Notes under the pieces: model-generated
Database searches by the model: none
The model's input: the letters and a program-made list of their open reading frames with translations, nothing else
What the model was told of the DNA's origin: nothing
Position numbers and translations under genes: made by a program
In this document: positions 16,494-61,659 of the stretch, one piece after another
Layout of the letters: every line of letters starts with the position of its first letter
Numbering within the stretch: the first letter of the stretch is position 1
NCBI RefSeq assembly: GCF_026210795.1
Contig: NC_089432.1
Location: 3,906,001-3,970,000, forward strand
Direction: 5' to 3'
Origin: Rhizophagus irregularis
Lineage: Eukaryota; Glomeromycota; Glomeromycetes; Glomerales; Glomeraceae
Length of the DNA: 64,000 nucleotides

Positions 16494-16849
16494 TAAAACA
16501 CAATGATAAAAACAGTCGGGGAGTAAAAATTAAAGAAGAAAATTAATTGGAGGAAGCTGAATCAGCTTGTTCCAGGGAAGCACCACCAATGGAGCTAATA
16601 AATTGTTGGATATGACCGGTCAGTTGGTCCAATTTACTTTCAATAACGACTCTACTATTTTTGAGATCGTTGATTTCTTCTTGTGTAGAGGAGATGGGGG
16701 TAAAGGAAGGAGCATTTGGGGAAAGATGAGAAGAAAGAGGCGACGTGTTGGAAACAATAGTGGTTGGAGGTAGAGGTCGCGTTAAAATACTTTTGGGGGG
16801 GCAAGTAGGGTTGCAGACATTTCTTTTGCCAAGGGTAGTTACCTTACGG

Positions 16850-18070
16850 TGAGATCCCCCAATTCCCCCTGTCATCAATTTACAAGGTTGCCACATCGAA
16901 CGGGCATTCTCATGGTCGAACGAACGAATGAGCGAACAAACAAACGAACGAACGAGCAATCAAACGAACAAACACGTGATCAAAACATAATTAACGAACA
17001 ACAACATCAGCGAACAATATACAACAACATTCTTGGTTCACAAAATAAATAGCGTTAGCAATATAAAGCGTTGAACGGTATAAAATAAAATTAACTTCTC
17101 TGAATTTTCCTCAATTTATATCCACTTTCGATTTCAAACTGCGATAGCTCTCGCTACGAATTATTATCTTCCAAAGGTATATATTTAATTCATCTTAAAT
17201 TTTCATTAATTAAAATTAATTAATCAAACATTAATTAAAGTTTAGGGCGAACCTATTACCTTTAATTAATATTAAACTTCATTAATAATTAAAAAATAAA
17301 ACTTATATTTTATTGAGTTCTGTGGATGCGAACTATGGAATTACTTTGAATTCCGTTCTCTATATATACAATTCTTATGCTATTTTCTATTCTATCTATA
17401 TACTATCTTTTATGTTCTTTACATATTATCTTTGAACTATCTTTCTAATATACTATCTATATTTTAAATACGCTATCTTTTAATATGCTATCTTTTATAT
17501 TATTTTATATGTTATCTTTTCTATTATTCAAATATTACATCGCAAAGAAATAATTTATAACCCATCTTTTATGGCTGTGCTACCTTTTCTTTAAATAATC
17601 TTTCAAATATTATGTCGTAAAGATATAATTCGTCTTTTGTGGCTGTGTTATCTTTATATATGTTATCTTTTATATTCCATCTTTATGCCATCTTTTCATA
17701 TTATCTTCTATATTATTTTGTGTTCTCCAATCTTTCCGACATTATTTTATATATTCTTTTAATCCACTTTATGTGTTTCGCTCATAATCTACCTTTTGTG
17801 GCTTATAATTATTCTTTCTTGTCGTTCTCATTGTTAAAGATCGCTAAGCCGCAAATGATCGACTCTATTTATCCTATTGGTTCTTTGTCAATCATTCAAT
17901 AAATATTACATCATGTAGATCATTACTCTTCTTAAATGTTTATCCTTTTCGGCTAATTATTTATCCATCCACGCCAATCCACGATTAATTCGTTCGTTCT
18001 TAATACTTGATAATTACATTTGGTGGTTGAATTTTATCTTCTTTTCGTACTTGATATTTGGCCGTTTACA
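16850..18070 (-). repeat. 3' LTR of element 1
   Basis: Begins TGAGATCCCCC and ends GGCCGTTTACA on the plus strand. It matches 27238-28459 almost base for base. It is A/T rich with many CTATCTTTTAT words. As the element reads on the minus strand, this copy provides the transcript end. Open frames inside it are not supported as genes. Confidence 0.95.
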
Positions 18071-18448: not shown

Positions 18449-19357
18449 TTATTTTTCTTGAGCTTTTTTCACATTTTCTTTTATTTTTCTTCTTATTACT
18501 GGTAGCTCCTCAATTAGTATTTTTACTCTATTAGCTAACGTTATCTTGTTTTCATCTTTGTCTAATGGTAATTTCGCTCTCCTTCCGTACGTTGCATAAA
18601 AAGGTTTAATTCCTGTTGACGATTGCTTCTTTGTTCTGTATGCAAATAATACATGTTTATCCCAATCTTCTTCTCCTAATTTGGCTAATCCTTCGCATAA
18701 AGTTTTATTGAATCTTTCGACCAAACCATTTGTCTGTGGCCTATATGGTGTACTTAATCTATGATTTATCCCACATCTTTCTACTAATTCCTCCATCATT
18801 TTATTGTTAAAGTGAGTCCCTCTATCGCTAATTATTTTCTTTGGACATCCATGTCTACAAATTATGTCCCTCCAAATAAATTCTACTACCTCTTTTGCTG
18901 TAGCTTCTTTTAGTGGTGCGGCCTCGGGCCATTTTGTAAAATAATCCATTGCTACTACCATGTACTTATTTCCCTTTTCTGTCTCTTTTAACGGTCCAAC
19001 TATATCTATCCCAATCATCTCAAATGGTTCATTTATCTTTATTGGCGTTAATTCGTTCTTTCCTCTTGGTTTTCCTCTCATTTGACAATTCCAACACGTC
19101 CTTACATATTCTTCTACATCTTCTTTCATATTTTTCCACCAATAATTTTCTTTTATTCTATCTAATGTCGCTTCTATCCCAAAATGTCCTGATAATTCAT
19201 TATCATGCATCATGTATATCAATCCCTCGTATTCATAATCCCTGATTACTCTAAATCTGTTTTGTCCTTTTATTCTATATAAAATTCCTTCTTTCAATTC
19301 ATATTTATTCTCTTTTTCGATATTGTCAATTATTCTCTCATAATTATTTTCCTCCAT
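18449..19357 (-). CDS. Integrase of LTR element 1
   Basis: Starts at an ATG (19357) 60 bp downstream of the pol stop. The N-terminal zinc module is visible (H-x-L..HFGIEAT and CWNCQMRG), then the rve core with IGIDIVGP, IISDRGTHF and QTNGLVERFNKTL, supplying the D, D and E of the catalytic triad. The C-terminal GPY/F module continues to about 18140 (WKGPYLIHEEF). It inserts the cDNA into the genome; the separate reading frame implies its own expression strategy. Part of an element that is otherwise close to whole. Confidence 0.9.
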   Translation of the reverse strand: MEENNYERIIDNIEKENKYELKEGILYRIKGQNRFRVIRDYEYEGLIYMMHDNELSGHFGIEATLDRIKENYWWKNMKEDVEEYVRTCWNCQMRGKPRGKNELTPIKINEPFEMIGIDIVGPLKETEKGNKYMVVAMDYFTKWPEAAPLKEATAKEVVEFIWRDIICRHGCPKKIISDRGTHFNNKMMEELVERCGINHRLSTPYRPQTNGLVERFNKTLCEGLAKLGEEDWDKHVLFAYRTKKQSSTGIKPFYATYGRRAKLPLDKDENKITLANRVKILIEELPVIRRKIKENVKKAQEK

Positions 19358-19416: not shown

Positions 19417-21498
19417 TTAGTTCTGTGCTCTTCTCCATTTTTCCACCTCTTTAAATACTTTTCTCCAACTACTATTGTCATTTTTAACTTTTACTCGACT
19501 GTATCTTTTGGTATCTTTATACACACTTTGATTTTCTTCAAACATTTTAACCATGTCCAAATATTCATCCTTCTTTAATGTTGGATATGATGATTTTTCC
19601 GTTTTCTTTGTTTCTCTTCCAATGTAATTTTCCCAACATACATTGCCATCTTTTTCTAAAAATATCACTATTGATTTATCTATTGTTTCTTTCAGTCTGA
19701 ATATTTCTTTCTCCATCTCATGATTTCCATGTGGAGTAATTAATCCTCTGTCAAAACTTTTCGTCTTTTGGTAATAATATTCACAATATGGTGATTTGTC
19801 CAAAATTATTATATCTGTATCTTCATCGTATTCTACCATTCTTCTATTTATTTGTTCCACTACTTCTTTTCTGAATTTCCATTCTGTATCCATCTTTGAT
19901 TCGTGAAATTCATCTTTATCTTTTCTTCTTCTTTTATAAGTATTGAATCTTACTTTTAATCCTTGTTCTTCCCATTCTTTAATTAAATTTTGTACTATAC
20001 TTGTTTTTCCCAATCCGTCTACTCCATCGATTATTACTATTTCTGGTTGTTCCTCCACTATCTTTAATAATCTACTTAGTGCGTCGGCGTTCGTATTTTC
20101 TTTTCCCGACCTATGTACTACTTCGAAATTATATTGCTGTAATTCCATTACCCATCTTGCTCTTCTTCCTTTCGGTATTTTTGCGTTCATTAATCCTTTT
20201 AATGCACTGTGATCTGTTATTACTTTAAATTTTCTATCGATTAAATACTTATGAAAATGTTGAATTCCCCAAACTATTCCTAAACATTCCAATTCTGTTA
20301 TCGGATAATTTTCTTCTGCTGGTAATAAACTTCTACTTGCATATGCTATTACTACTTCTTTTCCTTTTTCATCTTTTTGGCTTAATACTGCACCTAATCC
20401 TTTTCCTGATGCATCTGTTATTAATAAAAATTCTTTCTTCCAATCTGGATGTCGCAATATTGGATATTGTATTAACTTTTCTTTCAACTTTTCAAACGCT
20501 TCTTGTTGTTCTCTTCCCCAAATAAAAGGTATCCCCTTCTTTCTCAAATCGCTTATTGGTCTTGCTATCTTTGAAAAATTCTTCACAAATTTTCTGTAAT
20601 ATGAACAAAGTCCTAAAAATGATCTTACTTCTTTCACCGTTGTCGGTGCCTTCATTTCTTTTATCTTTTCTATCTTTTTATCGTCCGGCCTCAATCCATC
20701 ATTTCCTACTATATGTCCTAAAAATTCTATATTTCTTTCCAAAAATCTACATTTCTTTAATTTTATTATCAAATTATTCTCCTGTAACTTCTTTAATACT
20801 TTTTCCACATGTTCCATATGGTCTTTCAAATTTCCTGAATATATCATAATATCGTCAATATATACTACCACAAAATCATTTATGTATTCTTCTAATATTT
20901 CATCCATTAATCTTTGAAATGTTGCTGGTGCGTTCGTTAAACCGAATGGCATTACATTATACTCAAATAATCCCTTTGAACATACAAATGCTGTTTTTTC
21001 TTTGTCTTCTTCTTTCATTTCTACTTGATTAAATCCTGCTGCTAAATCTATGCTTGAAAACCATTTTGCTTTTCTATATTTGTCTAACAATTCATCCATT
21101 CTTGGTAAAGGAAAACTATCCATTATAGTTATCTTGTTTAACTTTCTGTAATCAATACAGAATCTATATTTTCCCGTTTTCTTTCCTGCTAATGTAACCG
21201 GTGAACTCCATGGACTTTTTGATTTTCTTATCCTTCCTTGTCTTAATAATTTATCTACTTCTTCGCTTATAAATTTTGCCTTTTCGTCTGTTTCCTTGTA
21301 TCTTCTTTGTTTTATCGGTTCTACTCCATCTTTTATTTTTATCTCATGTTGCGCCGCTTTTGTTCTCCCTTCTATTTCTTTGTCATATTCCAAAATATCT
21401 TGGTATTCTAATAATAATTTTACCATATTTTCCCAAATTGGTTCTTCTACTTTCCCTATACTTAATTTTTGCATAAATTTTTCACTTGGTTCGAGCAT
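19417..21498 (-). CDS. RT-RNase H polyprotein with C-terminal thymidylate-kinase-like domain (LTR element 1)
   Basis: A 693-residue open frame. Residues about 60-250 are the reverse transcriptase (FSSIDLAAGFNQVEM; catalytic VVYIDDIMIYS), followed by the connection and RNase H (LLITDASGKGLGAVLSQ, ITDHSALKGL, NTNADALSRL, ending near 475). The surprise is residues about 485-693: IVIIDGVDGLGKTSIVQNLI holds a P-loop GVDGLGKT at 492-499 (nucleotides 20025-20002). Then come IIILDKSPYCEYYYQ, which resembles the DR[YS]-type motif of thymidylate and deoxynucleoside kinases, and a lysine-rich lid-like stretch (YIGRETKKTEK). The length of about 205 residues equals a typical thymidylate kinase. It is in frame with RNase H and not followed by integrase sequence. 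Retroelement pol genes are known to capture dUTPase, RNase H or chromodomains; a dNMP kinase is not something I know. Family assignment is by motif only. Confidence 0.88.
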   Translation of the reverse strand: MLEPSEKFMQKLSIGKVEEPIWENMVKLLLEYQDILEYDKEIEGRTKAAQHEIKIKDGVEPIKQRRYKETDEKAKFISEEVDKLLRQGRIRKSKSPWSSPVTLAGKKTGKYRFCIDYRKLNKITIMDSFPLPRMDELLDKYRKAKWFSSIDLAAGFNQVEMKEEDKEKTAFVCSKGLFEYNVMPFGLTNAPATFQRLMDEILEEYINDFVVVYIDDIMIYSGNLKDHMEHVEKVLKKLQENNLIIKLKKCRFLERNIEFLGHIVGNDGLRPDDKKIEKIKEMKAPTTVKEVRSFLGLCSYYRKFVKNFSKIARPISDLRKKGIPFIWGREQQEAFEKLKEKLIQYPILRHPDWKKEFLLITDASGKGLGAVLSQKDEKGKEVVIAYASRSLLPAEENYPITELECLGIVWGIQHFHKYLIDRKFKVITDHSALKGLMNAKIPKGRRARWVMELQQYNFEVVHRSGKENTNADALSRLLKIVEEQPEIVIIDGVDGLGKTSIVQNLIKEWEEQGLKVRFNTYKRRRKDKDEFHESKMDTEWKFRKEVVEQINRRMVEYDEDTDIIILDKSPYCEYYYQKTKSFDRGLITPHGNHEMEKEIFRLKETIDKSIVIFLEKDGNVCWENYIGRETKKTEKSSYPTLKKDEYLDMVKMFEENQSVYKDTKRYSRVKVKNDNSSWRKVFKEVEKWRRAQN

Positions 21499-21533: not shown

Positions 21534-22037
21534 CTATTTAAAATTCTGGTGCATTTTGAATACCTCTCCCTCATCGTTACTTTCATATTTTTCATCGTCC
21601 TCACTCTCTTCGCTTTCATATATTGCTTCTCTTTCATATCCTACTGGGATCGTTATTATTTCTCCCTGTTTTTCTATCCTTAAGGTATGATCTTCGAAAT
21701 TTATTTTTGCATTATACAGCTTCCATATATCATTTCCCAAAATTAGATCCTCTTCTTCTGAATCTATTACTTCAACTTCTTTTAGTATCTCTAATTCATC
21801 TTCGTATCTTAAAGTTATATTTGCTTTTCCTAACGCTGCTATCTTTTGCCCATTTGCTATTGTACATCTAAATTTACTTTTTCCAAATATAGGTATATTC
21901 AATCTTCTTCTTAATTTATCTGTTATCACACTTACTGCTGCTCCGGTATCTATTATTACGCTCACTAATTGATCTTCAACTTCTAATTCTGTTCTCATTG
22001 CTGTAGTTTTCTTCTCTTCATTTTTCATAGTTCCCAC
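21534..22037 (-). CDS. Retropepsin-like aspartic protease of LTR element 1
   Basis: A 167-residue open frame with the catalytic SVIIDTGAAVSVI early on and the flap-and-core pattern typical of retropepsins (KFRCTIANGQKI, EDLILGNDIW). It overlaps neither neighbour: 9 bp separate it from Gag and 35 bp from RT. The acidic C-terminus (ESEESEDDEKYES) is unusual but also present in the second LTR element. It cleaves the element polyproteins. Confidence 0.88.
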   Translation of the reverse strand: MGTMKNEEKKTTAMRTELEVEDQLVSVIIDTGAAVSVITDKLRRRLNIPIFGKSKFRCTIANGQKIAALGKANITLRYEDELEILKEVEVIDSEEEDLILGNDIWKLYNAKINFEDHTLRIEKQGEIITIPVGYEREAIYESEESEDDEKYESNDEGEVFKMHQNFK

Positions 22038-22046
22038 CGAGTGTAG

Positions 22047-25000
22047 TCAATTTTTTTCGTTTATACTTCTTGGTCTATATGTTGCTTCTCTCAATTGTTT
22101 ATGATACTTAGGATTCCCATTTATTAATTGTCCATATGTTATATTCGCTCTACAATTTTTCACATCCCCTACAATATCATAAGGTGGTATTCCGTCAGTT
22201 AATCTTGGTCCATACTCCCTGGACTTCATTGGTCCTCCTGCTTCTCTCCATTTTCTTAGTCCTTCTGTTGGGTCATAATAAGCTTGCCTTTTATTACTCC
22301 ATCTCATTCCTTTTGGTCCTATTGGTCTATCCCCATTTTGTTCAGTTCGTTCAGGTATATAATTTGGTGCTGTCATACCAGTTGGTATTTCTCTATCATC
22401 CATTCTATTTCCTGCTTCTCTTAATTCTTCCTGTAAATTTCCCTCTTCATTATTATTTTTATATCCCACTATTGGACTCGTCCTTCTTGATTGTCTTCTT
22501 CCTTTTACTGCGTCATCCTTTGCGTATAACTCATTATGATAATTTAATTCTCTATCTTCATAATCATCGTAATAGCCTTGTGCATAATATACTTCGTTAT
22601 ATTGTGGATCCTCGTATCCATATTCATCATAATAATATTCTTCTTGATCATCATATTCGTCCATCATATTTACTCTCGCATTCCTTCCTTCGGGACAATT
22701 ATTCTTGTAATGCCCCATTCTATTACATCCGAAATACGTTGGTACCCTATTCTGGTTTGATTGATAACTATTCCTATTACCATTATTTAATCTCCTTCCC
22801 ATATTTGGTTGATACCTATCCCTATTATCGTTGTTTAATCTTCTCTCCATATTTGCTACCATTCTTTCTAATTTACTAATTTTCGCCTTCTCTTTAAACA
22901 TTTCAGCTAATTCGTCCTCATAATTTTCGTTCAATGGTTTTGCGAACATATTTTGTCTATTGTCATCTTTTCCGATATCTATTTTCGTACTAATTGGTGT
23001 TCCTATTGCTTTTCTTAAAAATTCGTCTTTTGCACCTTCTTCTCTTACTGCTATTTCTATCGCCCCATTTAAGTTCGCTGGATTCTGTCTTCTAACTTGA
23101 TATCCTATTGTTGGTTCTAATCCTTCGATGTAAAAATCTACTTGATATTCATCTGCTAATGCATGTCCTCTAGTTGCTATTCTTAATATTTGTCTAAATC
23201 TTCTTGTATATTCTTCAACACTTTCATTTGTTCCTTGTCGAGTTTTTCTTAATTCTAGCATTTTCTTTCTTCTAACATCCTCTCTGGTAAATCTTCTTTT
23301 TATTCTATGCTTTAAATCATTATCATTATCTGCATCTGCCCAATTCACTAAGTGACCTGCATTTACTTCTTTCATTTCATTATACCATTGCGCTGCTGCT
23401 CCTCTTAAATGTGCTGCTGCGTATACCGCTTGTCTTACGCCATTAGCTCCCGCTGCTTTTCCGACTGCTGCAAATGCTACCTCGAATTGTCTAACCCAAT
23501 CAGTAACATCTTCATCTTCTCTTCCATAAAAGAGTGGTATACTAATTGTTCCTCCTGCTTCATTTCCTGCATTTTCGATCCTATCTATCAAACTTCCTCC
23601 TGCTCCTACTGCTGCGTTCAAAGTATTAGCCGGATAGCCTAAAGCGTTCTCTAACACTCTCCTTACTTGGTCCTCAGTTGCCATATTCAATATATTCTCT
23701 TGAAATAAATCTTGTAAATTGTAATCAGATAATTCACTTTCGTTGTCAGAATTTTTAATATTTAATGAACTATTCGTATCTGAATTTTGACTTAAGTCGC
23801 TATCCCCTCTATTTATAACATTTTCAACTTCATCTTCAAACTCTTCTTCGTTAAAATTTTCAATATCTTCATCCCATCTTTCATCCGGACTTAGTATTTC
23901 TCCAATCTTTTCTGAATCATCTGTATTATCTTCTTCTGATTCTTCATTATCGCTTCTTTCACCACTTTCTTCACTATCTATTATTCCCGCTTGTTCTTTC
24001 AACAACTTATCTAATTTTTTCTTCAATTCTTTTTCCGACTCATCTTTATTTTCTTGAAAGATTTCAATGAATTCTTTATCTAAAATTTCTCCATCTGTAT
24101 ATCCCATACTAGTTAATCTCAACAATTCTTCTTCAGTTATTATTGTTCCAATATCTTCAAAAATCTTCTGTAATCTTTTTACCCGATCATCAATTTCATC
24201 GATATTTTCTTCTTCACAATCTTTGCATACCATTCCTCTTACTCTAGACATATCATCCATCCATCCTAATCTAAACATATCATTCATCCATCTTATTTCG
24301 CATCTTTCGCACCAAGTTGTATTCTGGTTTAACCACTTATGAATTTCTTTTCTTAATTCTTTATCTTCCAAATCTATCATTTCCATATATTCTTCCACAA
24401 ATTCTTTAGTTACTATTATTCGATTATTTACCCCAAAACTCTTCATTCTTTGAATTTCTGACACATCTATTTCATATCCCAATTTTTCTAAGTTGTTTCT
24501 TAATTCTATTAGCTCATCTTGTTCATTCTTCTGCGCTTCTTTAACACATTCCCCGCATTCGCTATCCGCTTCGTCCATTTCGAACCTTCTATTACCACAT
24601 TTTTCACATCTTATTGTTTCTTTTTCTAACCATTCTTTTATCCTCAATTCTTTTTCCCTTTCATCCAATTCCTCTATCTCTTGAATTTTATCCATAAATA
24701 TTCTCGTTACCAATATATCCATTTCTATCATCAACTTTATTCCTATCTTCCAAATGTACCTCAGTTGATCTTCATCCATAACATTTGACCTTCTTCTTAA
24801 TTCACTAAATTTCCATGATTTATCTCCTATTATTATCTCTAATTCTTCCTTGGAATCATTTTCCAATTCGTAACTTGCTGGACTATCTTCACTTTCTGAA
24901 TCTTCTGGTTCTTTTGTAAATCCCCTAGTATCTATAAATATTCTTATTATCTTTTGCATCATATTCTTGTGATATTCGTGAACATTTTCTATATGTATGT

Positions 25001-25568
25001 TCTCATATTCTATTTTGGACATTAGTTCCTTTACTTTCTCCCCATTCATAGCTATTCCTTCTTCTTCATATAGTAACTCCCTAAACGTCTCTATTGCTCC
25101 TGTCTTTACTCGTAATGGTCCAATTTCTTTTGATGTGATTCTATACCATTGCCAAAATTTCTCAAACCTTCTTTCAACATCCCAATCTTCCAAAATATAT
25201 TTGTGTTCTATTAATTCAGGATTTCCAATTAATCTATCAAATACTTCATTCCCCAGATTTCTTTCAATACAGTCTCTTACAATTACTAATATAATCGTTC
25301 GTAATCCCCTTTCTTTCATTTTTGGTTGTATTCTATATCTTATTGATTCCGTTATTCTATCCATTATGTCTCTACATTTCCCTTTATGTATTGTATCTTC
25401 CCTTTCTGAATTATTCATACTTAATAAATCTAATACTCCCTTAATCGTTACGTCATTGTATATTATTATTGCATCTTCAAATTTAAATAACGCGTCCCAA
25501 AATTTCTTGAATACTATTGGTTCATTTACTATTGGATAACATAATTCACAATTTAAACATTCATCCAA
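22047..25568 (-). CDS. Gag of LTR element 1 with long N-terminal extension
   Basis: About 1173 residues, far longer than a usual Ty3 Gag. The capsid-type retro_gag block lies near residues 680-860 (IPLFYGREDEDVTDWVRQF, LRGAAAQWYNEM, NESVEEYTRRFRQI, YIEGLEPTIGYQVR). A zinc-knuckle-like GHYKNNCPEG follows near 940. After this come D/Y-rich and basic stretches. The first 600 residues are extra: three related modules, each a helical stretch with an L-x-SMGY-x-D-x-x-I or similar core followed by K/R-rich helices, the first two ending in a C-x-x-C pair (CEKC, CERC). A very acidic linker (SDDSEKIGEILS..) comes next. The second LTR element has the same plan. The true start may lie slightly upstream; the limits given are the open frame. 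Confidence 0.85.
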   Translation of the reverse strand: MDECLNCELCYPIVNEPIVFKKFWDALFKFEDAIIIYNDVTIKGVLDLLSMNNSEREDTIHKGKCRDIMDRITESIRYRIQPKMKERGLRTIILVIVRDCIERNLGNEVFDRLIGNPELIEHKYILEDWDVERRFEKFWQWYRITSKEIGPLRVKTGAIETFRELLYEEEGIAMNGEKVKELMSKIEYENIHIENVHEYHKNMMQKIIRIFIDTRGFTKEPEDSESEDSPASYELENDSKEELEIIIGDKSWKFSELRRRSNVMDEDQLRYIWKIGIKLMIEMDILVTRIFMDKIQEIEELDEREKELRIKEWLEKETIRCEKCGNRRFEMDEADSECGECVKEAQKNEQDELIELRNNLEKLGYEIDVSEIQRMKSFGVNNRIIVTKEFVEEYMEMIDLEDKELRKEIHKWLNQNTTWCERCEIRWMNDMFRLGWMDDMSRVRGMVCKDCEEENIDEIDDRVKRLQKIFEDIGTIITEEELLRLTSMGYTDGEILDKEFIEIFQENKDESEKELKKKLDKLLKEQAGIIDSEESGERSDNEESEEDNTDDSEKIGEILSPDERWDEDIENFNEEEFEDEVENVINRGDSDLSQNSDTNSSLNIKNSDNESELSDYNLQDLFQENILNMATEDQVRRVLENALGYPANTLNAAVGAGGSLIDRIENAGNEAGGTISIPLFYGREDEDVTDWVRQFEVAFAAVGKAAGANGVRQAVYAAAHLRGAAAQWYNEMKEVNAGHLVNWADADNDNDLKHRIKRRFTREDVRRKKMLELRKTRQGTNESVEEYTRRFRQILRIATRGHALADEYQVDFYIEGLEPTIGYQVRRQNPANLNGAIEIAVREEGAKDEFLRKAIGTPISTKIDIGKDDNRQNMFAKPLNENYEDELAEMFKEKAKISKLERMVANMERRLNNDNRDRYQPNMGRRLNNGNRNSYQSNQNRVPTYFGCNRMGHYKNNCPEGRNARVNMMDEYDDQEEYYYDEYGYEDPQYNEVYYAQGYYDDYEDRELNYHNELYAKDDAVKGRRQSRRTSPIVGYKNNNEEGNLQEELREAGNRMDDREIPTGMTAPNYIPERTEQNGDRPIGPKGMRWSNKRQAYYDPTEGLRKWREAGGPMKSREYGPRLTDGIPPYDIVGDVKNCRANITYGQLINGNPKYHKQLREATYRPRSINEKN

Positions 25569-27237: not shown

Positions 27238-28459
27238 TGAGATCCCCCAATTCCCCCTGTCATCAATTTACAAGGTTGCCACATCGAACGGGCATTCTCA
27301 TGGTCGAACGAACGAATGAGCGAACAAACAAACGAACGAACGAGCAATCAAACGAACAAACACGTGATCAAAACATAATTAACGAACAACAACATCAGCG
27401 AACAATATACAACAACATTCTTGGTTCACAAAATAAATAGCGTTAGCAATATAAAGCGTTGAACGGTATAAAATAAAATTAACTTCTCTGAATTTTCCTC
27501 AATTTATATCCACTTTCGATTTCAAACTGCGATAGCTCTCGCTACGAATTATTATCTTCCAAAGGTATATATTTAATTCATCTTAAATTTTCATTAATTA
27601 AAATTAATTAATCAAACATTAATTAAAGTTTAGGGCGAACCTATTACCTTTAATTAATATTAAACTTCATTAATAATTAAAAAATAAAACTTATATTTTA
27701 TTGAGTTCTGTGGATGCGAACTATGGAATTACTTTGAATTCCGTTCTCTATATATACAATTCTTATGCTATTTTCTATTCTATCTATATACTATCTTTTA
27801 TGTTCTTTACATATTATCTTTGAACTATCTTTCTAATATACTATCTATATTTTAAATACGCTATCTTTTAATATGCTATCTTTTATATTATTTTATATGT
27901 TATCTTTTCTATTATTCAAATATTACATCGCAAAGAAATAATTTATAACCCATCTTTTATGGCTGTGCTACCTTTTCTTTAAATAATCTTTCAAATATTA
28001 TGTCGTAAAGATATAATTCGTCTTTTGTGGCTGTGTTATCTTTTATATATGTTATCTTTTATATTCCATCTTTATGCCATCTTTTCATATTATCTTCTAT
28101 ATTATTTTGTGTTCTCCAATCTTTCCGACATTATTTTATATATTCTTTTAATCCACTTTATGTGTTTCGCTCATAATCTACCTTTTGTGGCTTATAATTA
28201 TTCTTTCTTGTCGTTCTCATTGTTAAAGATCGCTAAGCCGCAAATGATCGACTCTATTTATCCTATTGGTTCTTTGTCAATCATTCAATAAATATTACAT
28301 CATGTAGATCATTACTCTTCTTAAATGTTTATCCTTTTCGGCTAATTATTTATCCATCCACGCCAATCCACGATTAATTCGTTCGTTCTTAATACTTGAT
28401 AATTACATTTGGTGGTTGAATTTTATCTTCTTTTCGTACTTGATATTTGGCCGTTTACA
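27238..28459 (-). repeat. 5' LTR of element 1
   Basis: Near-identical partner of 16850-18070. In the element's own direction this copy carries the promoter. On the right it abuts the 4-bp target duplication ACGG at 28460-28463 and then the remaining part of the MITE. Confidence 0.95.
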
Positions 28460-30732
28460 ACGGCATACGTCACGTCAAGATACAACATATGCTGTAACAC
28501 AAGAAAAAAAAATTTTTCATATCAAACCTACTTAAACCTACTTGTAATGATCAATTACTACAGTAATTGCCATACTTAATTTTGGCTGAAAGTACAATTT
28601 GGCTAGAGTTAAAATTAAAATTACTACCTTACTACCCCATACGTCAATACGGCAAAATATTTGAAAAGTAGTATCTTCTTACTACATTGACATATTGACG
28701 TATAAGGTAACTACCTTAAGATATGTCTGCAACCTTAGAGGCAAGGAAGCTTTAGCAGAGGGTTGAATGTTAAGCGGAACATGAGATATGGGGGCATCAT
28801 CTTGCATAAGATCCAGATCAGGTTCATTGGGTGTAGGAAGCGGGTCAAGGCCAAGGTGTGTTTCGATTCGAGCCATCCATTGGTCAGCGAGTTCAAGAGC
28901 GGAGATGCGTTTATGAAAATTTGCAACTTCACATTGCAATTCACGCAAAAGGTTTAAGATGTTGTTGGCATCATCAGAAGATAATGCAGAATTTGGAGTT
29001 TGTCAGGACAAGGTGCGTGTAATAGAACGAGAGGAGGAAGAAAAAGAGACCGATCGTTCTTTACTATTATGCCAGGCACGTCGTGAGGTATTGGGATTGG
29101 GTATATTATTATTATTAACATTGTTATTGTGGTCTTGAGAATTATTAATATCACGTCTGGAGTTAGAAGCTGATCGATCTTTTGATTTTGAGCGAGATCG
29201 GGAGCAAGAACGTGAATTAGCAGCATTGGGATTGGAGCGGCGAGGAGGTTGATTGACATTAAATTGCTCTTTGAGTTTAATTACGGGGTCGTGAGTACGA
29301 GTATAACCTCTAGTTTGTTTGAGTGGGCAGAAATTCGGGGCACAACCTAATTTGCCACATCTGTGACAAAGTTTATTAGTATTATCTGGGGAGAACCAAA
29401 AAAGCACCTTGTCTTGGAAGCTGACAGTTTGTTCCATAGCAGCATCCATGGTTTCTTGGGAATTGAAAGTAACGTAGGCCCATCTTTTGGGTTTGTATGA
29501 ATTTAAGGAAAGCAGTACATTGACAGCTTTAGCACCAAGGTCACGAGTAAGAGGAGCCAAGTTGATATCCTTAACATTGGGGAGAAGTTGAGTGAGGGTG
29601 GCGACGTATTATTGGCGTGCAGCCTTTTGATCCACAGTATAGAAGCATGGAGTGATCCTAAGACAAGTGGAGAAACAGTATACAGCCCATTGATCAGTAA
29701 AGCGAGCAATCGAATCGGCATGATCATAAACGATACGAGCTTGTTGGACTTTGGCATTAGGCCTAGAAAAAAGGCGGCAAGAGGTGATATTTCCAAATTT
29801 TTTGAAGTAAGCCATTAGATTATCCTTTTTAATAAAGAAAGGGATATCGGTAACTTGGATAGCCCGTTGATCTTCATTAGAGCGAAGTTGGCGAGGGTCA
29901 TGGGCATGAAAGATCAAGTCAGGGAACTCAGGATGAGTAGAACCAACACACAAATCACGTGCTTCATCGGTATGGAAGTGGATAATGAGGCGTTTAGCTT
30001 CGCCAGAACCAGTCATACGAGCTTTTCCAGTGAATGACTCGTATGTTTCTAAAAAAAGGTTAGGTTATTAACAGCCTCGATAAGGGCTTTATTGGTAGGG
30101 AATTTCTTGAGAGATTCAGAGGCAGCATTCGGCACAGCCGCAGCCTAAAAATCATCTCTGGTTATGGCGAGGGTCACCACTGGATCGGGAGTATGATCAC
30201 CATCTGGAACACCAGTGATATCCATATTAGGCGACGCGTTAGGGGGTTGTTGCAAGTCTTTATTAGAAGGTGCATGCATAGACGCATCCACATTTCTAGA
30301 AGACACGACGTGACTGGGCGCAGATGGCGCAGCAGATTTTTTCAGGGAGGAGGTCAAAGTATTTTCGCCAGAGACATTTTGTTGAGGAGAAGAGGAAGGT
30401 CCATTTACTCCAACGTCAGTTATCTGGGTATCGGCAACGTAGTCTTCTTCCATAGAATTTTCAGTAATCGTACGATTACGTTTCTGCTGGATAGTGTTTT
30501 CACCATCGGAGCTTGAATTATCAGAGTTATTATTATTTTTTCATTCTTGACAGGAAGCTTTCCTACTGTTAGGGTTATGACTTCCACGGCCTCTCTTGGC
30601 ATAGTTACCAGACATAGTAGAGGGCTTTGAGTTGGAAATATATAAAATATAAAATTTTATTAGTAGCTTGTATTATTTTTTAAAAATAATAAAAAATTAT
30701 TTTCGTCGAAAATTTTCATTTTTGAAAAATTC

Positions 30733-52953: not shown

Positions 52954-53527
52954 TGTGACACGCCACCCATAGGACATTAAAATAAAATATCGTATGTTGC
53001 CACCGACGTGTTGAGTTCGTGTAGTCTCTATGCTTGGTTTAAAATAAAAATTAGTTACAAAACATTAATAAACCATTAATTAAAATAATTAATGTGGCAC
53101 TTTTTACTCATAAGAAAAAGGCAAAAAGAATGTGTTAGTTTTTATTAAGGGCGAATTAAAAATTTTTTATTTTTCTAAAAAATTGAACTCTGGAATTTCC
53201 TATCGAAATCCACTTGTATTTATACATTTTAAGAAAATCATTTCTACTATCTACTACTTTTTCTCTATTAAAATTCTAAGAATAATAAGAAATAAAAGAT
53301 GTATTATCATATGACTTTCTCGTTACACTAAACTAAACTATAAATATAATTTTATTGGCTAATTATTTATCCATCGGCTAAATATTTATCCGTCACTTAC
53401 TGCGCCATGTGACTTGTCACGTGACTTTTGTATTCCCAACTGTTTCTTCTTGTGTAACCATATCATGTGACCTACTGCGCCACAGGATTTACTGCGTCAT
53501 TTATCTATTATATTTTCGGTTATTACA
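52954..53527 (-). repeat. 3' LTR of element 2
   Basis: Plus-strand ends TGTGACACGCC and GGTTATTACA. The partner copy is at 61676-62250. A purine tract, AAGAGGAGGATAAA on the minus strand, adjoins it at 53528-53541. Confidence 0.94.
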
Positions 53528-53833
53528 TTTATCCTCCTCTTGAAAAATTTATGTCCCATAAATTAATTTAAGAATCGAATTCGGGTCTCAAACATATTAT
53601 ATTACTATATATGGTTCAAATATTTCTCTATCAAAATATTCTTTTAATAATTCTCCATTTACTGGTCTTCTTAAAATTCTTCCATTTAATTCTTTAATTT
53701 TGTATGATCCATTTACTATTATTTCATGTATATAATATGGTCCTTTCCATTTTTCTTCTAGTTTTCCTGTATGTGTTTTGTATTTTGCCGCATCAAAATA
53801 TAATACTTTATCTCCTATTTGAAAGTTTTGTTT

Positions 53834-54820
53834 TCATTTTCCAATTTTGTCATGATATTTCTTCTGTTGTTCTTGTGCTTTTTCAATATTCTTCTTCGCT
53901 TCATATCTTTTTATTGGTAATTCTTCTATTATATGTTCTATTCTTTTAATCATTGTAATTCCTTTAACTTCTTCATCATTCGGTAATATTACTTTTCTTC
54001 CATAAGTTAAATAAAATGGTGTCATTTTACTTGATTTCTGTATTTTACTTCTATATGCAAACAATATTGGTGCTATTCTTTGATCCCAATTTTTATCTTC
54101 ATATTCTCTATTTCTATATATCGTTAATTTTTCTTTTACTAATTTCGCCAATGATTCTATTAATGTTTTATTAAATCGTTCTACTAATCCATTTGTTTTA
54201 GGGTGATAAGGAGTTGAGAATTTATGTTGAACATTAAATTTTTCTGTAAGATCTTTAGTTAATTGATTATTAAATTCCGATCCGTTATCTGTAAGTATTT
54301 TCTTTGGACATCCATGTCGACAAATTATTTCTTCATAAATGAATTTTGATATTTCTTTTGCATTTGCTTCTTTTATTGCTTTTGCTTCTGGCCATTTCGT
54401 AAAGAAATCTATTGCTACTACTATATATTTATTTCCTTCTTCTGTTCTTGGTAATGGTCCTATTACATCTATTCCAATCATATGAAAAGGTTCTTTTACT
54501 TCTATTGGATGTAATTCATGTAACCCTTGTGGATTATTTCTTCTTTGACAATTATCACAACTTTTTACATATTTTTCTACATCTCGTTTCATATTCTTCC
54601 ACCAATATTTTTCCTTTACTTTTTCATATGTAGCTTGAATTCCAAAATGTGCTGATAATTCATGATCATGCATCATATACATTATTCCTTCTAATTCAAA
54701 TCTTCTTATTATTCTAAATTTATTTTCATCTTTAATTTTATATAAAACTCCATTTTCTTGTATGTATTTTTCTTCTTTTTCTATATTCTTTAAAATTTTA
54801 TCATATTCTTTTTCATCCAT
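53834..54820 (-). CDS. Integrase of LTR element 2
   Basis: 328 residues from ATG at 54820. Zinc module (HDHELSAHFG, CDNCQRRN), rve core with IGIDVIGP, ILTDNGSEF and KTNGLVERFNKTL for the catalytic D, D and E. The GPY/F module lies farther on, to about 53600 (WKGPYYIHEI). The start overlaps the end of the small upstream ORF by 8 bases. Confidence 0.9.
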   Translation of the reverse strand: MDEKEYDKILKNIEKEEKYIQENGVLYKIKDENKFRIIRRFELEGIMYMMHDHELSAHFGIQATYEKVKEKYWWKNMKRDVEKYVKSCDNCQRRNNPQGLHELHPIEVKEPFHMIGIDVIGPLPRTEEGNKYIVVAIDFFTKWPEAKAIKEANAKEISKFIYEEIICRHGCPKKILTDNGSEFNNQLTKDLTEKFNVQHKFSTPYHPKTNGLVERFNKTLIESLAKLVKEKLTIYRNREYEDKNWDQRIAPILFAYRSKIQKSSKMTPFYLTYGRKVILPNDEEVKGITMIKRIEHIIEELPIKRYEAKKNIEKAQEQQKKYHDKIGK

Positions 54821-54980
54821 TTGTTAATAAATTTTCTATTTCGTTTTCAAATGGTAAAATAAATTTTATTTCTTTATCTTCAAATAATACGCAATGATAA
54901 TTTATATTTGTATGAATTATAAATATATATATTTCTAATCCTATTCTTTCAATCATTTTTTTTTTTATCTCGTTATTCAT
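54813..54980 (-). CDS. Small 55-codon ORF between RT-RNase H and integrase
   Basis: Reads MNNEIKKKMIERIGLEIYIF, then HTNINYHCVLFEDKEIKFIL and ENEIENLLTNG. Its last 8 bases overlap the integrase start (ATGGATGA). Such coupling could allow reinitiation, which would express the integrase. It may alternatively be a chance frame in A-rich sequence. No family is recognised. Confidence 0.35.
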   Translation of the reverse strand: MNNEIKKKMIERIGLEIYIFIIHTNINYHCVLFEDKEIKFILPFENEIENLLTNG

Positions 54981-55013
54981 TACTATTTATTATTTTCTAA
55001 ACTTTTATCTTTC

Positions 55014-56441
55014 TCATATTAACCTTGACATCGCATCAGCATTCTTATTTTCTTTTCCTGGTTTATGTATTATCTCAAAATCATATTGTTGTAATTCCAT
55101 CATCCATCTTCCTCTTCTTCCTTTAGGAACTTTTGATGTACTTATAAATCCTTTTAATGCTGCATGGTCTGTTATTACTTTAAATTTTCTTCCAATTAAA
55201 TATTTATGAAAATATTTTATTTCCCAAAATACTGCTAAACATTCTAATTCTGTTATCAGATACCTCTTTTCTGCATTTACTAAACTTCTACTTGCATAAC
55301 TAATAACTATTTCTCTATTATTTTCATCTAATTGTTCTAATATAGCTCCTAATCCTTCTCCTGATGCATCTGTTATTAATATAAATTCCTTTTCAAAATT
55401 TGGATGTTGTAATATCAGATAATTTATTAATTTTTCTTTTAATTCTTCTAATGCTTTTTGTTGTTTATCTGTCCATACAAAAGGAACATTCTTTCTCGTT
55501 AATTCCATTATTGGTTTTACTATTTTTGAATATCCTTTCACAAATTTTCTATAATATGAACATAATCCATTTATTTCTCTTACTTGTTTGATATTCTTTG
55601 GCGGTTTTAAATTTTTGATCTTTTCTATTTTCTTTTCATCTGGTTTTAATCCATCTGTTCCTACTATATGTCCCAAATATTCTACATTCCTTTTCGCCCA
55701 TTCACATTTCTTTAACTTTAACATCATATTCGCCTTTCTTAATTCTTCTAATACTATTTTTATATGTTGTAAATGTTCATTCCAATCTTTCGAATATATT
55801 ATAATATCATCTATATATACGTTCATAAATTTATCTAAGTATTCTTTAAATATTTTATTCATTGTTCTTTGAAATATTGCCGGTGCATTTTTTAATCCAA
55901 ACGGCATAACATTAAATTCATATAATCCTTGACTACAAATAAATGCTGTCTTTTCCTTATCTTCTTCTTTCATCTCTATTTGCCAATATCCACTTGCTAA
56001 ATCAATTGTTGTAAACCATTTTGCTACTCTAAATTTTTCTAATAAGTCGTCTATTCTTGGCAAAGGATATGCGTCTGTTATCGTCATTTGATTTATTTTT
56101 CTAAAATCTATACAAAATCTTTTATCTCCTGTCTTCTTATTTACTATTACTACTGGTGACGACCATGGACTACATGATTCTTGTATTATTTCTTCTTTTA
56201 ACATTTTATCTATTTCTCTTTTTATTATTTCTCTATTTTCTGTACTTTCTCTATATGCTTTTTGATTTATTGGCATTTCATCTTTCAACCTTATATTGCA
56301 TTTTACTATATTTGTTTTACTTATTTTCTTATCCCCATATATACAAATATCTTCGTATTCTTTAACTAAATCTTTTAATTCTTTCTCTTGTAATTTCTCT
56401 AAATCTTTATATTTTATTTCATCTGTCCAATCTTTGTGCAT
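55014..56441 (-). CDS. RT-RNase H of LTR element 2
   Basis: 475 residues ending directly after the RNase H (KNADAMSRLI). RT landmarks: FTTIDLASGYWQIEM, VMPFGLKNAPAIFQ and catalytic VYIDDIIIYS; RNase H: LITDASGEGLGAIL and ITDHAALKGF. It aligns by eye along its whole length with residues 1-480 of the element 1 protein, which shows that the kinase-like tail of element 1 is an addition or has been lost here. Confidence 0.92.
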   Translation of the reverse strand: MHKDWTDEIKYKDLEKLQEKELKDLVKEYEDICIYGDKKISKTNIVKCNIRLKDEMPINQKAYRESTENREIIKREIDKMLKEEIIQESCSPWSSPVVIVNKKTGDKRFCIDFRKINQMTITDAYPLPRIDDLLEKFRVAKWFTTIDLASGYWQIEMKEEDKEKTAFICSQGLYEFNVMPFGLKNAPAIFQRTMNKIFKEYLDKFMNVYIDDIIIYSKDWNEHLQHIKIVLEELRKANMMLKLKKCEWAKRNVEYLGHIVGTDGLKPDEKKIEKIKNLKPPKNIKQVREINGLCSYYRKFVKGYSKIVKPIMELTRKNVPFVWTDKQQKALEELKEKLINYLILQHPNFEKEFILITDASGEGLGAILEQLDENNREIVISYASRSLVNAEKRYLITELECLAVFWEIKYFHKYLIGRKFKVITDHAALKGFISTSKVPKGRRGRWMMELQQYDFEIIHKPGKENKNADAMSRLI

Positions 56442-56473
56442 CTTTAATGTCTCTCCATTATTATGGCCAAGAC

Positions 56474-56975
56474 CTAATAGTTTTCCTCTATGATATGTCC
56501 TTTTTCTTCATTATTTATTAAATATATTTCTCGTTCACTTGTTTCTTCATATTCATTTTCACTATTTTCATCTTCACTATCATCACTATCATTATCGTCA
56601 TTAATATTTCTGTCATTATTTTCATATTCTATTGGTATTTCAATATCTTTTTCATCTTCTCTTAATATTAATATCTTTTCATTATAATCTATTATTCCTT
56701 TCTTTTCTCTTAACACATCATTTCCTAATATTAATTCTTTCTCTACTGATTCAATTACATCCCATTTCTGTGTTTTCATTTACTTTTATTGTTATTTCTA
56801 TTTTTCCTTTTGATGCAACTCTTGTTCCGTTAGCCATTATAAATCTAATATCACTCTTTTCTATTATTGGAATATTTAATTCTTTTCTTAATTTATCTGA
56901 TATTAAACTGACTGATGCTCCTGAATCTATTATTATTGATACTAATTTTCCTTTTATTATAACTTCACTTCTCAT
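56474..56975 (-). pseudogene. Protease region of LTR element 2
   Basis: The retropepsin core VSIIIDSGASVSLI lies near 56945, followed by DIRFIMANGTRV and, farther on, ELILGNDVLREKKG and an acidic tail (DDNDSDDSEDENSE). The arrangement equals that of element 1. Treated as a fossil part; it is broken about once. Confidence 0.75.
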
Positions 56976-57029
56976 TGCTCTAGTTTCACTTTTATTATCT
57001 GCACTTTTTATTTGTTGGTCTGAGTGTAG

Positions 57030-57344
57030 TCATGCATTATCATCTTCATCATAATTTCTAGCTATTCTTCTAAATTTTGGATTTTCATTGTAAATTTGTC
57101 CATATGTTATATTTGCTTTTTCATTAAACATATCCATTACATATTTTTCTGGTGGTACATTAACTCGTACTCTAATATTTTTATTTCCTCTTTTCATTCC
57201 TGGATTTGGACATTCTCTTATAAAATGACCTGTTAATCCACATCTTTCACATCGGTTATGTCTTCTTCTCGATTGATATGCTCTATCTCTATCTTCTTTA
57301 TTAGAAAATCCTCCTTTTCTTTCACCATCAATATCCATTTTCAT
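57030..57344 (-). CDS. Second zinc-knuckle frame downstream of Gag (LTR element 2)
   Basis: 104 residues with a classical CCHC knuckle CERCGLTGHFIRECP and a basic N-terminus (RDRAYQSRRRHNR). Its start overlaps the Gag stop by 4 bases. The ending ITYGQIYNENPKFRR matches the Gag C-terminus of element 1 (ITYGQLINGNPKYHK), so it corresponds to the end of a Gag-like protein, either by natural frame change or by a break. Confidence 0.65.
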   Translation of the reverse strand: MKMDIDGERKGGFSNKEDRDRAYQSRRRHNRCERCGLTGHFIRECPNPGMKRGNKNIRVRVNVPPEKYVMDMFNEKANITYGQIYNENPKFRRIARNYDEDDNA

Positions 57345-60300
57345 ATCATATTCTCTTTTGGTGGTATTGGGACATCTTCAATTTCCATCTCATTATAGTC
57401 ATTATCTAAATCTCTTCCATATTTTCTACCGCTTCTTAAAGTTGGAAATATTTCTTTTTCATAATTATATATTTCGTGATTATTATAATATTCATTATCA
57501 TTATATCCTTTATTATCATAATATCTTTCGTGATCCATTAAATTTATATTTCTATTATTATTATTATTTCTTCTTTCATTATTATTCCTATTAAAATTAT
57601 TTTGCGTTCTATAATTATTTCTTCGTCTTAATTGTGGACATTCTGGTCTTATATGACCTTCTTCATTGCATTCATAGCATCTCATAATTCTTGCATTTCT
57701 TGTATTTGTGTTTCTATTTATATTTCTTCTTTGTTGATTTTTTATCTCATTTAACCTTTCTTCCATAGCTATTTTTTCTGCTCTAAATTGTTCTAATGCT
57801 TTGCTTAATTCATCAATATCTTTTTCATTAACTGGCTTTTGCATCTTTCTATATATTTCATTTTCTTCTTTTTTATTCGTTTCTTCTTTTAAAATTTCTT
57901 CTATATTCTTTTCTTGTCTTATTTGTTCTATATTTACACCCGTTATTTTCATCATCAATTCATTTTTAGCTTCTTCTTCTCCTCTTGCTGTAATAATTGC
58001 ATCACTTAAATTTGTTGGATTACTTCTTCTAACTTGGTACCCCAATGTAGGTTCTAACCCTTGAATATAATAATTTACTTGATACATATCGTGTAATGCT
58101 TGACCTCTAGTTGCAATTCTTAATATTGACCTAAATCTTCTAATATATTCTTCAACACTCTCATTTTTTTCTTGTTTAATCCTTGTCAATTCTATCATTT
58201 TTCTTCTTTTAACATCTTCTCTAGTGAATCTATTAATTAATTTATTTTTCAAATTTCTATCATCATTATGATCACACCAGTTTACTAAATTAGCTGCTAC
58301 TCTTTCTTTTTCTTCATTATACCATTGTAATGCAGTTCCTCTTAAACATGTTATTGCTACATTTGCTTTATTTTGTCTACATATACCTCCTCCAACATTT
58401 CCTTCTGTTCTTCCACTTACTGTAAATGTTACTTCAAATTGTCTAATCCAATCGTTAACATCTTCATCTTCTTTTCCACTAAAAGTTGGCATACCTACTA
58501 TTCCTCCCATTCCTGCAGTTTGAATTCTATCTAATAAAGTTTGTCCTGCTCCTAATGCATTATCTAATGCATTAGGTGCGAGTCCTATAGCATTTTCTAC
58601 TATTCTTCTCATTTGTGCTTCTGTTGCCATGTTTAATAATATATTTTCCTGTAAATTATAATCAGATAGTTCACTTTCTGTATCAGAATTTTCAATATCA
58701 GAATCCTTAATATTCAACAAATTATTCGAATCTGAATTTTGACTTAAGCCAGAATCTTCTGTATTTATAATATTTTCATCATTATTTCCAGTTTCATTCT
58801 CATTGAAGTCTTCAGAATTTCCTTCCCAAATCTCATGTTCTTCTGGATCTAATATTTCTCCAATCTTTTCTGAATCATCTGAATTATCATTTTCTTCTTC
58901 ACTCTCTTCAATCTCGAATTTCTTTAAGTACTCATCCAATATTCTCCTTATTTCCCTTTCTGATTCATTTTTATATTCTTGAAATTTTCTTATAAAGTCT
59001 GCACTTAATATATCAACATCTCTATATCCCATACTTATTAATCTTAATAATTCTCCATCAGAAACTTCAATTTCTAAAACTTTAATTAAATTTCTTAGCT
59101 GTTCTAATCTTTTCTCCATTTCCGTTTCATCATCCAATTTATTCTCGTCTTCCAAATTTTCTGGTCCTTTTTCATAACAACTTTTACATATCTTTTCTAT
59201 AAATTCTTCATTATATTCTACCGCTTCTATTGCTTCTTTCTTTAATATTATTTTATTGCACATTGGACATTCTCTCGTATACATATAATGCCATATTTTT
59301 AATTCTTCTTCTATTCCTTTATCACCTAATTCTTCAATAGTTTTGTAAAAACTCATAAATTCTTTAGTCTTCATTATTTCATATTCCACTCTGAAATTTA
59401 TTATTCGTCTTATCTCTTCAATATCAATTTCATAACCATTCTCTAACCAATAATTTCTGTATGTTCTTTCTATATATTCATCTCCTTCATTCGAACTTAG
59501 TTCTCCCGCATCATCTGAACTTTCCAGTTCTCCTACATCACTTTGTTCTTCAACAAAACCTTTTGCCTCTACAATTTTCCTTATTATTTTATCTGTTATA
59601 TCGTCATTTGTCCATGGTCTCAGGTATTTATTTCCATCCCACCATTGATATGTTATACTTTTCTGAAACTTCCTGACTTTCTCTCTATTCTCTTCTTCTA
59701 CTATATTTTCTTCTAAATGCAATATTTCCTTGAAATATCTCATAGTACCATATCCTTTGTTTTTGATGGTTATTGATTCTGTCTTTTCTAACCATTCTTC
59801 AAATTTTGCAAATCTTATATCCAATTCATCATCTTCTATAATATATCTATATGTTAACAATTCCCTATTTCCTAATAGATTCTCTTCTGTTCGATCGTCT
59901 AATATAAACTCATTATCTTCACTCAATATGTAATGTTCACAGATCACTTTTATCACTGATATAATTCCCATTTTTCTGTAATCTGATTTATTTCTATACC
60001 TAATTGACCTTACAACTATATCTAACAGTTTTTCCCCTTCTTTTCTTATTTTTTCAAATTCTCTATTTCTTTTCTTTTTACTAGATGGATAACTTTCTTC
60101 CCCATCCTTTCTTGTTAGTATTATATATTCCATTAATTTTACATATGTATTTCTGTTATAACTCATCGCTTCTAATATTACTTTTTGAAAAATCTTCCAA
60201 AATCTTTTAAACCAATCTTCTATCTCTATTTCATCAGTACTATAACATTTTAGACATGAAGGGTCCACTTGATATTCTTTTCTTAATTCATTATGTTTCT

Positions 60301-60352: not shown

Positions 60353-60597
60353 TTTTTATTTACTTAAACATTTCATAATTTCACTTTTATTTATATTTTA
60401 TAAAATTTTATCATCATTTAGATTACTATTTTATCTTTTACTTCTTTTAAAATACAATTTAAATTTTAATATTTTCAAAGTTCCAGCTTTGATTCTATAC
60501 TTTCTTTATACATTCTATAATATAATTTATAATTTATAATCGCGATTTTATTTATAAACTTTCTATATCTTGCGCAAATAAACTGTGATCAAGGCTA

Positions 60598-60715
60598 GGG
60601 ATTATTTATAACTGGGGCCACCCAGTATCAGACTAATATGATCACTAACAAAGGCTTATTTATACTGGGTCCTCCCAGTGTGCTCTTATTTATACTGGGG
60701 TTCTCCCAGTTTTAT
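60598..60715 (-). repeat. Three repeated ACTGGG..CCCAGT hairpins
   Basis: Three stems of the form ACTGGG-loop-CCCAGT, each preceded on the plus strand by TTATTTATA, lie at 60611-60626, 60664-60679 and 60694-60710. Loops are 4-5 bases and differ in sequence while the stems stay intact, which suggests that the fold is what matters. Confidence 0.8.
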
Positions 60716-61566: not shown

Positions 61567-61659
61567 TAATTTCACAAATTTTTCTTTCATTTTCTCATAT
61601 ACTTTTCTTTTATTTCTCATTTAGATCTTGTATGAAGACAACAATCTTTTATTTTCTCA

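Follow-up and report, generated by a model that had tools for sequence, protein, structure and literature searches.

Within a 64,000-nucleotide stretch of the Rhizophagus irregularis genome (contig NC_089432.1, positions 3,906,001 to 3,970,000; the window hereafter), we found a complete Ty3/Gypsy (Metaviridae) long terminal repeat (LTR) retrotransposon, element 1, with all its parts on the minus strand. Its open reading frame (ORF) for reverse transcriptase (RT) and RNase H runs on into a P-loop domain that resembles thymidylate kinases (TMPK) and deoxynucleoside kinases (dNK). On sequence comparison and a predicted structure, we consider it probable, at roughly 60%, that the element encodes in this domain a (deoxy)nucleotide kinase which belongs to the TMPK/dNK superfamily and feeds cDNA synthesis. 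The features concerned are listed in window coordinates.

19417..21498, minus strand: RT-RNase H-kinase-like ORF, 693 aa, open (Pfam)
19420..20046, minus strand: TMPK/dNK-like domain, 209 aa, residues 485-693 of that ORF
20002..20025, minus strand: Walker A motif (P-loop) GVDGLGKT, residues 492-499 (sequence)
19768..19800, minus strand: DKSPYCEYYYQ, residues 567-577, at the position of the TMPK motif DR[YFH] (alignment)
19603..19620, minus strand: lid-like basic segment GRETKK, residues 627-632 (sequence)

The RT and RNase H parts of the frame were assigned by Pfam (RVT_1, 2.5e-44, residues 106-264; RT_RNaseH, 1.1e-37, residues 352-456). As the original prediction had stated, the frame stays open beyond RNase H into a P-loop domain, with the P-loop at residues 492-499; the interval it had given, 19417..20045, lay one base out of frame. 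The P-loop follows the thymidylate kinase pattern GxDGxGK[ST], and its G, D, G, G and K were invariant in an alignment of 10 members, as were R and E of GRETKK. The TMPK/dNK layout that had been read from the tail was thus found in the P-loop, the length of about 200 aa and the lid-like segment, whereas the supposed DR[YS]-like motif proved to be DK. DR[YFH] is presumably the motif of the thymidylate kinase family; its D and R were invariant among 30 phage kinases aligned, and the element kinase does not match it. PD[LV], a motif that the phage kinases have, was also absent from the element kinase in the alignment.

In profile searches, Thymidylate_kin matched the 693-aa ORF from residue 490 on (2.2e-4), and one family member, C16:4182955, taken with its frame neighbours in a six-frame scan, exceeded the Pfam cut-off with a score of 28.4. 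The thymidylate kinase profile phrog_761 matched the window tail over its full length (2.1e-13, residues 3-204) as well as 10/10 element-kinase members. With an E-value limit of 1, the Pfam model of the deoxynucleoside kinase family (PF01712) did not match the tail; HMMER filters drop most matches above about 0.1. A PDB sequence search with the tail alone returned designed repeat proteins in its top rows and led nowhere.

A confident structure model, built with phage kinases in its input, fitted thymidylate and deoxynucleoside kinases equally well, showing the TMPK fold over the whole domain and the dNK fold too, as the original prediction had anticipated. Other P-loop kinases, namely adenylate kinases and PPK2, were also returned by Foldseek for this model. 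By sequence and predicted fold the domain is a TMPK/dNK-like P-loop kinase, its substrate class being left at that breadth; we use this label because the DR motif is DK throughout and the Pfam cut-off was missed. The narrower name thymidylate-kinase-like agrees with the phrog_761 match and the predicted fold; the Pfam score does not carry it, and dNK fits equally. The conserved DK variant may represent a new substrate class of the superfamily.

The remaining parts of element 1 were located as follows.

16846..16849, no strand: target-site duplication ACGG, left copy (sequence)
16850..18070, minus strand: 3' LTR with TG...CA ends (blastn against 27238-28459)
18449..19357, minus strand: integrase ORF with H2C2 zinc finger and rve, own ATG (PF17921, 6e-22; PF00665, 8e-15)
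21534..22046, minus strand: aspartic protease frame, in the gag frame past a UGA-CUA stop (sequence)
22047..25568, minus strand: gag ORF, 1173 aa, with a long N-terminal extension (PF03732, 1.7e-13; PF19259, 2.8e-9)
27238..28459, minus strand: 5' LTR (blastn; further LTR copies genome-wide)
28460..28463, no strand: target-site duplication ACGG, right copy (sequence)

Element 1 thus has the LTR pair, TG...CA ends and short target-site duplication of Ty3/Gypsy elements together with gag (Retrotrans_gag/Ty3_capsid in Pfam), protease (ORF 21534-22037; PF13975, 5.7e-9), RT, RNase H and integrase, the last lying after RT-RNase H, its ATG separated from the kinase stop codon by 59 nt. The LTRs, which had been described as almost identical, agree at 1,221/1,222 aligned positions with one gap (blastn), and this supports the placing of element 1 in a recently mobile lineage.

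The fusion was found to be widespread in the host genome (146,748,485 bases, 32 contigs). When the whole ORF was used as query (64 of 431 candidates scored), at least 40 rows, the window copy included, showed 96-100% identity over at least 691 residues, and 38 of these had no stops. With the kinase alone (150 of 172 candidates scored, the listing being a lower bound and the per-family counts made by hand), at least 151 matches to the window tail were obtained. At least about 128 copies cover most of the domain and fall into at least four families, 54-100% identical: A, to which element 1 belongs (at least 57 copies, 93-100% identity to the window kinase, 53/57 without a stop); B (at least 20 copies, 85-87%); C (at least 15 copies, 60-66%); and D (at least 34 copies, 54-58%, 33/34 without a stop). 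Two near-complete copies, at 84% and 88% identity, lie outside these bands, and two further matches at 75% identity carry 2 and 6 stops. All of the 30 A copies checked, the best-scoring ones of the kinase-only search and not a random sample, have a kinase without a stop. The multiple copies that the original prediction had called for were therefore present in this genome; the tail did not turn out to belong to a P-loop family lacking a kinase fold, nor the fusion to be a unique copy or an assembly error.

The kinase sits between RNase H and integrase in all four family loci, and two fusion arrangements occur. In families A (window), B (L051) and C (L052) the RT-RNase H frame (706, 779 and 777 aa, respectively) has the kinase at its C-terminal end. 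In family D (L053) the kinase stands at the N-terminal end of a 600-aa integrase frame, which has a Met a short way ahead of the P-loop; a frame of its own encodes RT-RNase H. A linker of about 90 aa separates RNase H from the kinase in B (L051:2545-2823) and C (L052:4091-4369), where it is alike, and is absent in A; it gave no Pfam match better than E 0.083.

Substitution ratios show the kinase to be under purifying selection. Between subtypes, the ratio of non-synonymous to synonymous substitution rates (dN/dS; Nei-Gojobori, ten rows) was 0.05-0.22 for the kinase in 28 of 36 pairs, the other eight giving no dS as synonymous sites were saturated. For RT-RNase H it ranged from 0.03 to 0.24 in comparisons of kinase-bearing rows (0.09-0.24 for pairs from different families) and went as high as 0.39 against the kinase-less relative described below; all these values are rough because dS is often above 1. 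Within families, the corresponding polymorphism ratio (pN/pS) of the kinase was 0.069 in A (7 copies), 0.119 in B (4) and 0.172 in D (5), and that of RT-RNase H was 0.031 (8 copies), 0.053 (4) and 0.036 (5), respectively; over the 30 best-scoring A copies the kinase value was 0.082.

The kinase and the rest of Pol have different histories in family B. Compared at one locus per family, the RT-RNase H of B shares 88% identity with that of subtype C2 (L062), against 78% with C and 69% with A, and its integrase is 83% identical to C2, 85% to C and 62% to A, whereas its kinase is 66% identical to C2, 64% to C and 88% to A. Accordingly, the RT tree (14 rows) groups B with C2 (100/100) and the kinase tree (18 rows) groups B with A (99/99). 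In approximately unbiased (AU) tests with 14 RT rows and 13 kinase rows, the groups being picked after the trees had been seen, an A+B clade was rejected on RT (p 2e-52), and B+C2 and B+C+C2 were rejected on the kinase (p 9e-164 and p 0.004). These comparisons show that the kinase was swapped as a cassette between families, B having an A-like kinase with C-like RT and integrase. Locus L060, whose RT and linker are 98.8% identical to those of B over 1,329 nt and whose kinase is 74% identical, looks like the pre-swap state. Template switching between co-packaged RNAs would explain the exchange.

Recent activity extends to shortened forms. An LTR search (40 of 369 candidates scored, pairing by hand, counts being lower bounds) gave at least 16 LTR-LTR units with spacings of 10.4-10.5 kb (six), 9.2-9.4 kb (three), 5.7-5.8 kb (four) and 4.6-4.7 kb (three). 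By position, kinase sequence lies inside all 16, and in 15 of them the domain is complete and free of stops. The 9.2-9.4 kb units (L012, L024, L037) have the RT motif, and the integrase motif was not found in the stretch fetched. In the 5.7-5.8 kb units (L017, L018, L020, L021) portions of gag run in frame into the RNase H end and kinase; integrase is retained, and the RT motif YxDD was not found in the 3.6 kb fetched. Two 4.6 kb units (L136, L137), with LTRs 99.84% and 100% identical and target duplications GCGG and ACGT, have no YxDD or integrase motif and possess a 592-aa frame that ends in a whole kinase. Some derivatives have deletion ends in common, so there were few independent deletion events, and kinase retention by derivatives without the RT core is suggestive only. 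We would give even odds to the broader statement that these reverse-transcribing elements have a (deoxy)nucleotide kinase of their own, as a mobile cassette present in two fusions and kept by derivatives after loss of the RT core and, in some of them, of integrase as well.

A second Ty3/Gypsy element in the window lacks the kinase.

52954..62250, minus strand: element 2, Ty3/Gypsy relative without kinase (RT-RNase H 64% identical to element 1)
56441-55014, minus strand: RT-RNase H ORF of element 2 (sequence)

Element 2 resembles element 1 in the order gag, protease, RT, RNase H, integrase and differs in that its RT-RNase H stops, at ...NADAMSRLI, where the kinase of element 1 starts; element 1 continues ...NADALSRLLKIVEEQPEIVIIDGVDG. 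The end had been placed exactly at the fusion point; it does lie in the same region, within a few residues of that point. In a search with the element 2 RT-RNase H (90 of 420 candidates scored), 23 scored rows belonged by position to its own family; the remaining 67 came from families A, C and D, and 66 of these adjoin a kinase match, whereas one D-type row (C13:673416) has none listed within several kb. The placement of element 2 in the tree is weakly supported (52/10), hence a loss by element 2 is not distinguishable from a gain by the other elements.

No close prokaryotic or viral source for the kinase was found, since scans of viral_contigs and genome_contigs gave no relative of the element kinase or the whole ORF, and tblastn gave no relative in phages. 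Plasmids gave two weak matches in S. salivarius (24%, E 0.5); the one examined adjoins a thymidylate synthase and matches phrog_761. A host Cdc8-like gene on C13, in at least three pieces, has the P-loop GCDKAGKST and the motif DRYAYS. It was rejected as the origin on motif comparison, as it has K where the element kinase has G in the P-loop, and DR versus DK. Two other host sequences were noted: a free-standing 336-aa deoxynucleoside kinase frame (L050 2488-3495, minus strand; C28:1224005-1224616; PF01712, 1.2e-31), without a phage match at E up to 1e-4, and a second thymidylate-kinase-like stretch (L040; C24:3288271-3288729, plus strand; 8.5e-11) with the degenerate P-loop GCEDTNTTL.

We infer the following course of events. 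A Ty3/Gypsy lineage would have acquired a (deoxy)nucleotide kinase with a P-loop, a member of the TMPK/dNK superfamily, and retained it within Pol, with RNase H on one side and integrase on the other. The kinase would be produced together with RT-RNase H in families A-C and with integrase in D, and, whether the precursor is cleaved or stays fused, would be present in or near the particle at cDNA synthesis. There it may phosphorylate deoxynucleoside monophosphates, with dTMP as first choice, or deoxynucleosides, raising the supply of deoxynucleoside triphosphates (dNTPs) for reverse transcription in nuclei with low host dNTP synthesis. A role in dTTP supply is conceivable in particular: A makes up 44% of the sense strand in the internal part of family A elements, so that their first-strand cDNA would contain about 44% T. 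Base composition does not in itself call for a kinase, since the kinase-less element 2 is 49% A, and A-richness was rejected on this ground as the reason for its presence.

Several observations weigh against a kinase serving reverse transcription. DK replaces DR in all 64 loci having the motif (65 scanned, overlapping loci included). The Thymidylate_kin score of the window tail (21.0) is below the Pfam gathering cut-off of 27. The profile phrog_761 is not specific, having matches in all 14 control genomes, and its best match in the R. irregularis genome is a deoxynucleoside kinase gene (1.9e-16). Over 10 members the Pfam model AAA_28 reaches a better top E-value (3.1e-7) than Thymidylate_kin does (7.7e-6). 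The phage kinase alignment used in model building may steer the predicted fold; as a single-sequence AlphaFold2 (AF2) model the tail reached a predicted local distance difference test (pLDDT) score of 45, and a fold search with that model returned unrelated folds. When copies of one family are compared, the kinase shows weaker constraint than RT does (pN/pS 0.07-0.17 versus 0.03-0.05). Element 2 is also young (LTRs 99.1% identical), yet has no kinase, and is richer in A than element 1. Finally, one short derivative, C9 (L138), no longer has a P-loop, so the notion that short derivatives always retain the kinase was rejected.

The DK motif, the missed cut-off, the better AAA_28 score in the best member and the Foldseek matches to adenylate kinases and PPK2 would all suit a P-loop protein of the superfamily that has no (deoxy)nucleotide kinase activity and another role in the element, such as action on nucleic-acid 5' ends, ATP-dependent assembly or processivity, or nucleotide sensing; physical fusion to RT or integrase would likewise suit a replication-complex factor. 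We regard this as unlikely, because conservation extends to Walker A, the D at the DR site and the basic lid-like segment, the K retains the positive charge, and the phrog_761 match spans the whole window tail. Still less probable is a kinase directed at the host, which would shift nucleotide pools against silencing or another defence, or favour element-carrying nuclei. An open kinase frame in derivatives without the RT catalytic motif and the movement of the domain as a cassette would agree with it; in the loci seen the domain nevertheless keeps its place in Pol, after RNase H and before integrase, and a role in reverse transcription fits better for that reason. That the domain is a passenger from a single capture, carried without function, appears very improbable: the recent copies do share recent common ancestry and a kinase-less relative lies in the same window, but dN/dS is low across a long divergence with dS often above 1, none of the 30 best-scoring A copies has a stop, and exchange left the domain intact. 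An assembly error or one-off insertion in the element 1 copy is refuted by the other copies and has practically no chance of being correct, as the same junction recurs on many contigs, LTR pairs lie at fitting distances, and target-site duplications are present in element 1 and two other copies.

A (deoxy)nucleotide kinase in Pol would have partial parallels. A comparable role is ascribed to dUTPase in some retroviruses and fungal Gypsy elements. Passages of PMC2864245 describe fungal Ty3/Gypsy elements with a dUTPase (PosPlaTy3 and others) and propose replication in non-dividing cells as its role; rotifer elements with dUTPase appear in a passage of PMC5408684, and an excerpt of PMC3549941 reports that human non-dividing cells contain less dNTP. 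By analogy, the same logic would hold for an element kinase. The dUTPase-bearing fungal elements likewise have a captured enzyme of dNTP metabolism in Pol, at a place that varies by family; here the enzyme is instead a P-loop kinase-like domain between RNase H and integrase, and its exchange between families is shown. The thymidylate kinase family (PF02223/phrog_761) shares GxDGxGK, the length, the full-length phrog_761 match and the predicted fold with the element kinase, which differs in its DK, its lack of PD[LV], its score under the Pfam cut-off and its fusion to RT-RNase H or integrase. The predicted fold fits the deoxynucleoside kinases (PF01712: dCK, dNK, dAK) as well as it fits thymidylate kinases, and it is the host gene at L050, not the element tail, that matches their profile. 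In the baculovirus PeluSNPV, pelu112 is a thymidylate kinase-dUTPase fusion, according to a portion of PMC8961515; this too is a selfish genome carrying a thymidylate kinase fused to another DNA-precursor enzyme, although it is a large DNA virus, not a retroelement, and the partner is dUTPase rather than RT-RNase H or integrase. Among the open-access titles and abstracts listed (10 of 435 and 10 of 95 papers in two of the listings), a body of literature with preprints and most subscription journals outside it, no thymidylate or deoxynucleoside kinase was reported in an LTR retrotransposon; matching passages in further papers, PMC8961515 among them, describe no such element either. The main text of two R. 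irregularis transposon papers (PMC11075540, PMC8647823) is without the word thymidylate, and 'kinase' does not occur in the text portions obtained of PMC6431247, PMC2774666, PMC2864245 and PMC5408684.

Some features of expression and structure were recorded alongside. Between kinase stop and integrase Met (window 19358-19416), the TAA position is identical in 29 of the 30 A copies (L010-L039); counted from the first base of the stop, the integrase ATG lies at 63 in 20 copies, 62 in one, 52 in two and 232 in one, and the integrase motif was not found in six. A programmed frameshift from the kinase frame into integrase was rejected, the integrase frame being closed between kinase stop and ATG in 24/24 copies, that is, in all of the 30 in which integrase was found. 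The gag frame ends with UGA followed by CUA, which we take to be a classical stop-readthrough context, and the protease goes on in the same frame (window 22044-22049 and about 57022-57032, minus strand); TGACTA is present in elements 1 and 2 and in families B (L051 ~500), C (L052 ~6525) and D (L053 ~6542), where the protease is also in the gag frame. Gag is very long, with 1173 aa in element 1 (22047-25568, minus strand) and 1003 aa in element 2 (57341-60352, minus strand); the Retrotrans_gag domain begins at residues 716 and 665, respectively, and neither N-terminal extension gave a significant Pfam family. Directly inside the 5' LTR (window 27224-27235, minus strand) stands TGGTGCATGCTC, found at the same place in element 2 and likely a shared primer-binding site.

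Elsewhere in the window, an ORF at 43956-45179 (minus strand) matches the poxvirus A32 ATPase (PF04665, 1.6e-8) and may belong to a Maverick or to another viral-like element. A PIF1-like helicase ORF lies at 3795-6344 (plus strand; 1.3e-22), another reverse transcriptase ORF at 13236-14663 (minus strand; 2.9e-21), about 2.2 kb from the element 1 LTR, and long palindromes at 33164-33440 and 30743-31043 (95% and 90% self-complementary).

Capture of dUTPase by retroelements is known, and a nucleotide-kinase-like domain is apparently unreported in the open-access titles and abstracts listed. The cassette exchange and the two fusions show a way in which an accessory enzyme can pass from one retrotransposon lineage to another. 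If the kinase is active, it becomes testable whether dNTPs limit reverse transcription in non-dividing cells and whether elements evolve enzymes around that limitation. Such an enzyme, if the reading favoured here is true, would make self-copying possible in the dNTP-poor, mostly non-dividing nuclei of a coenocytic fungus.
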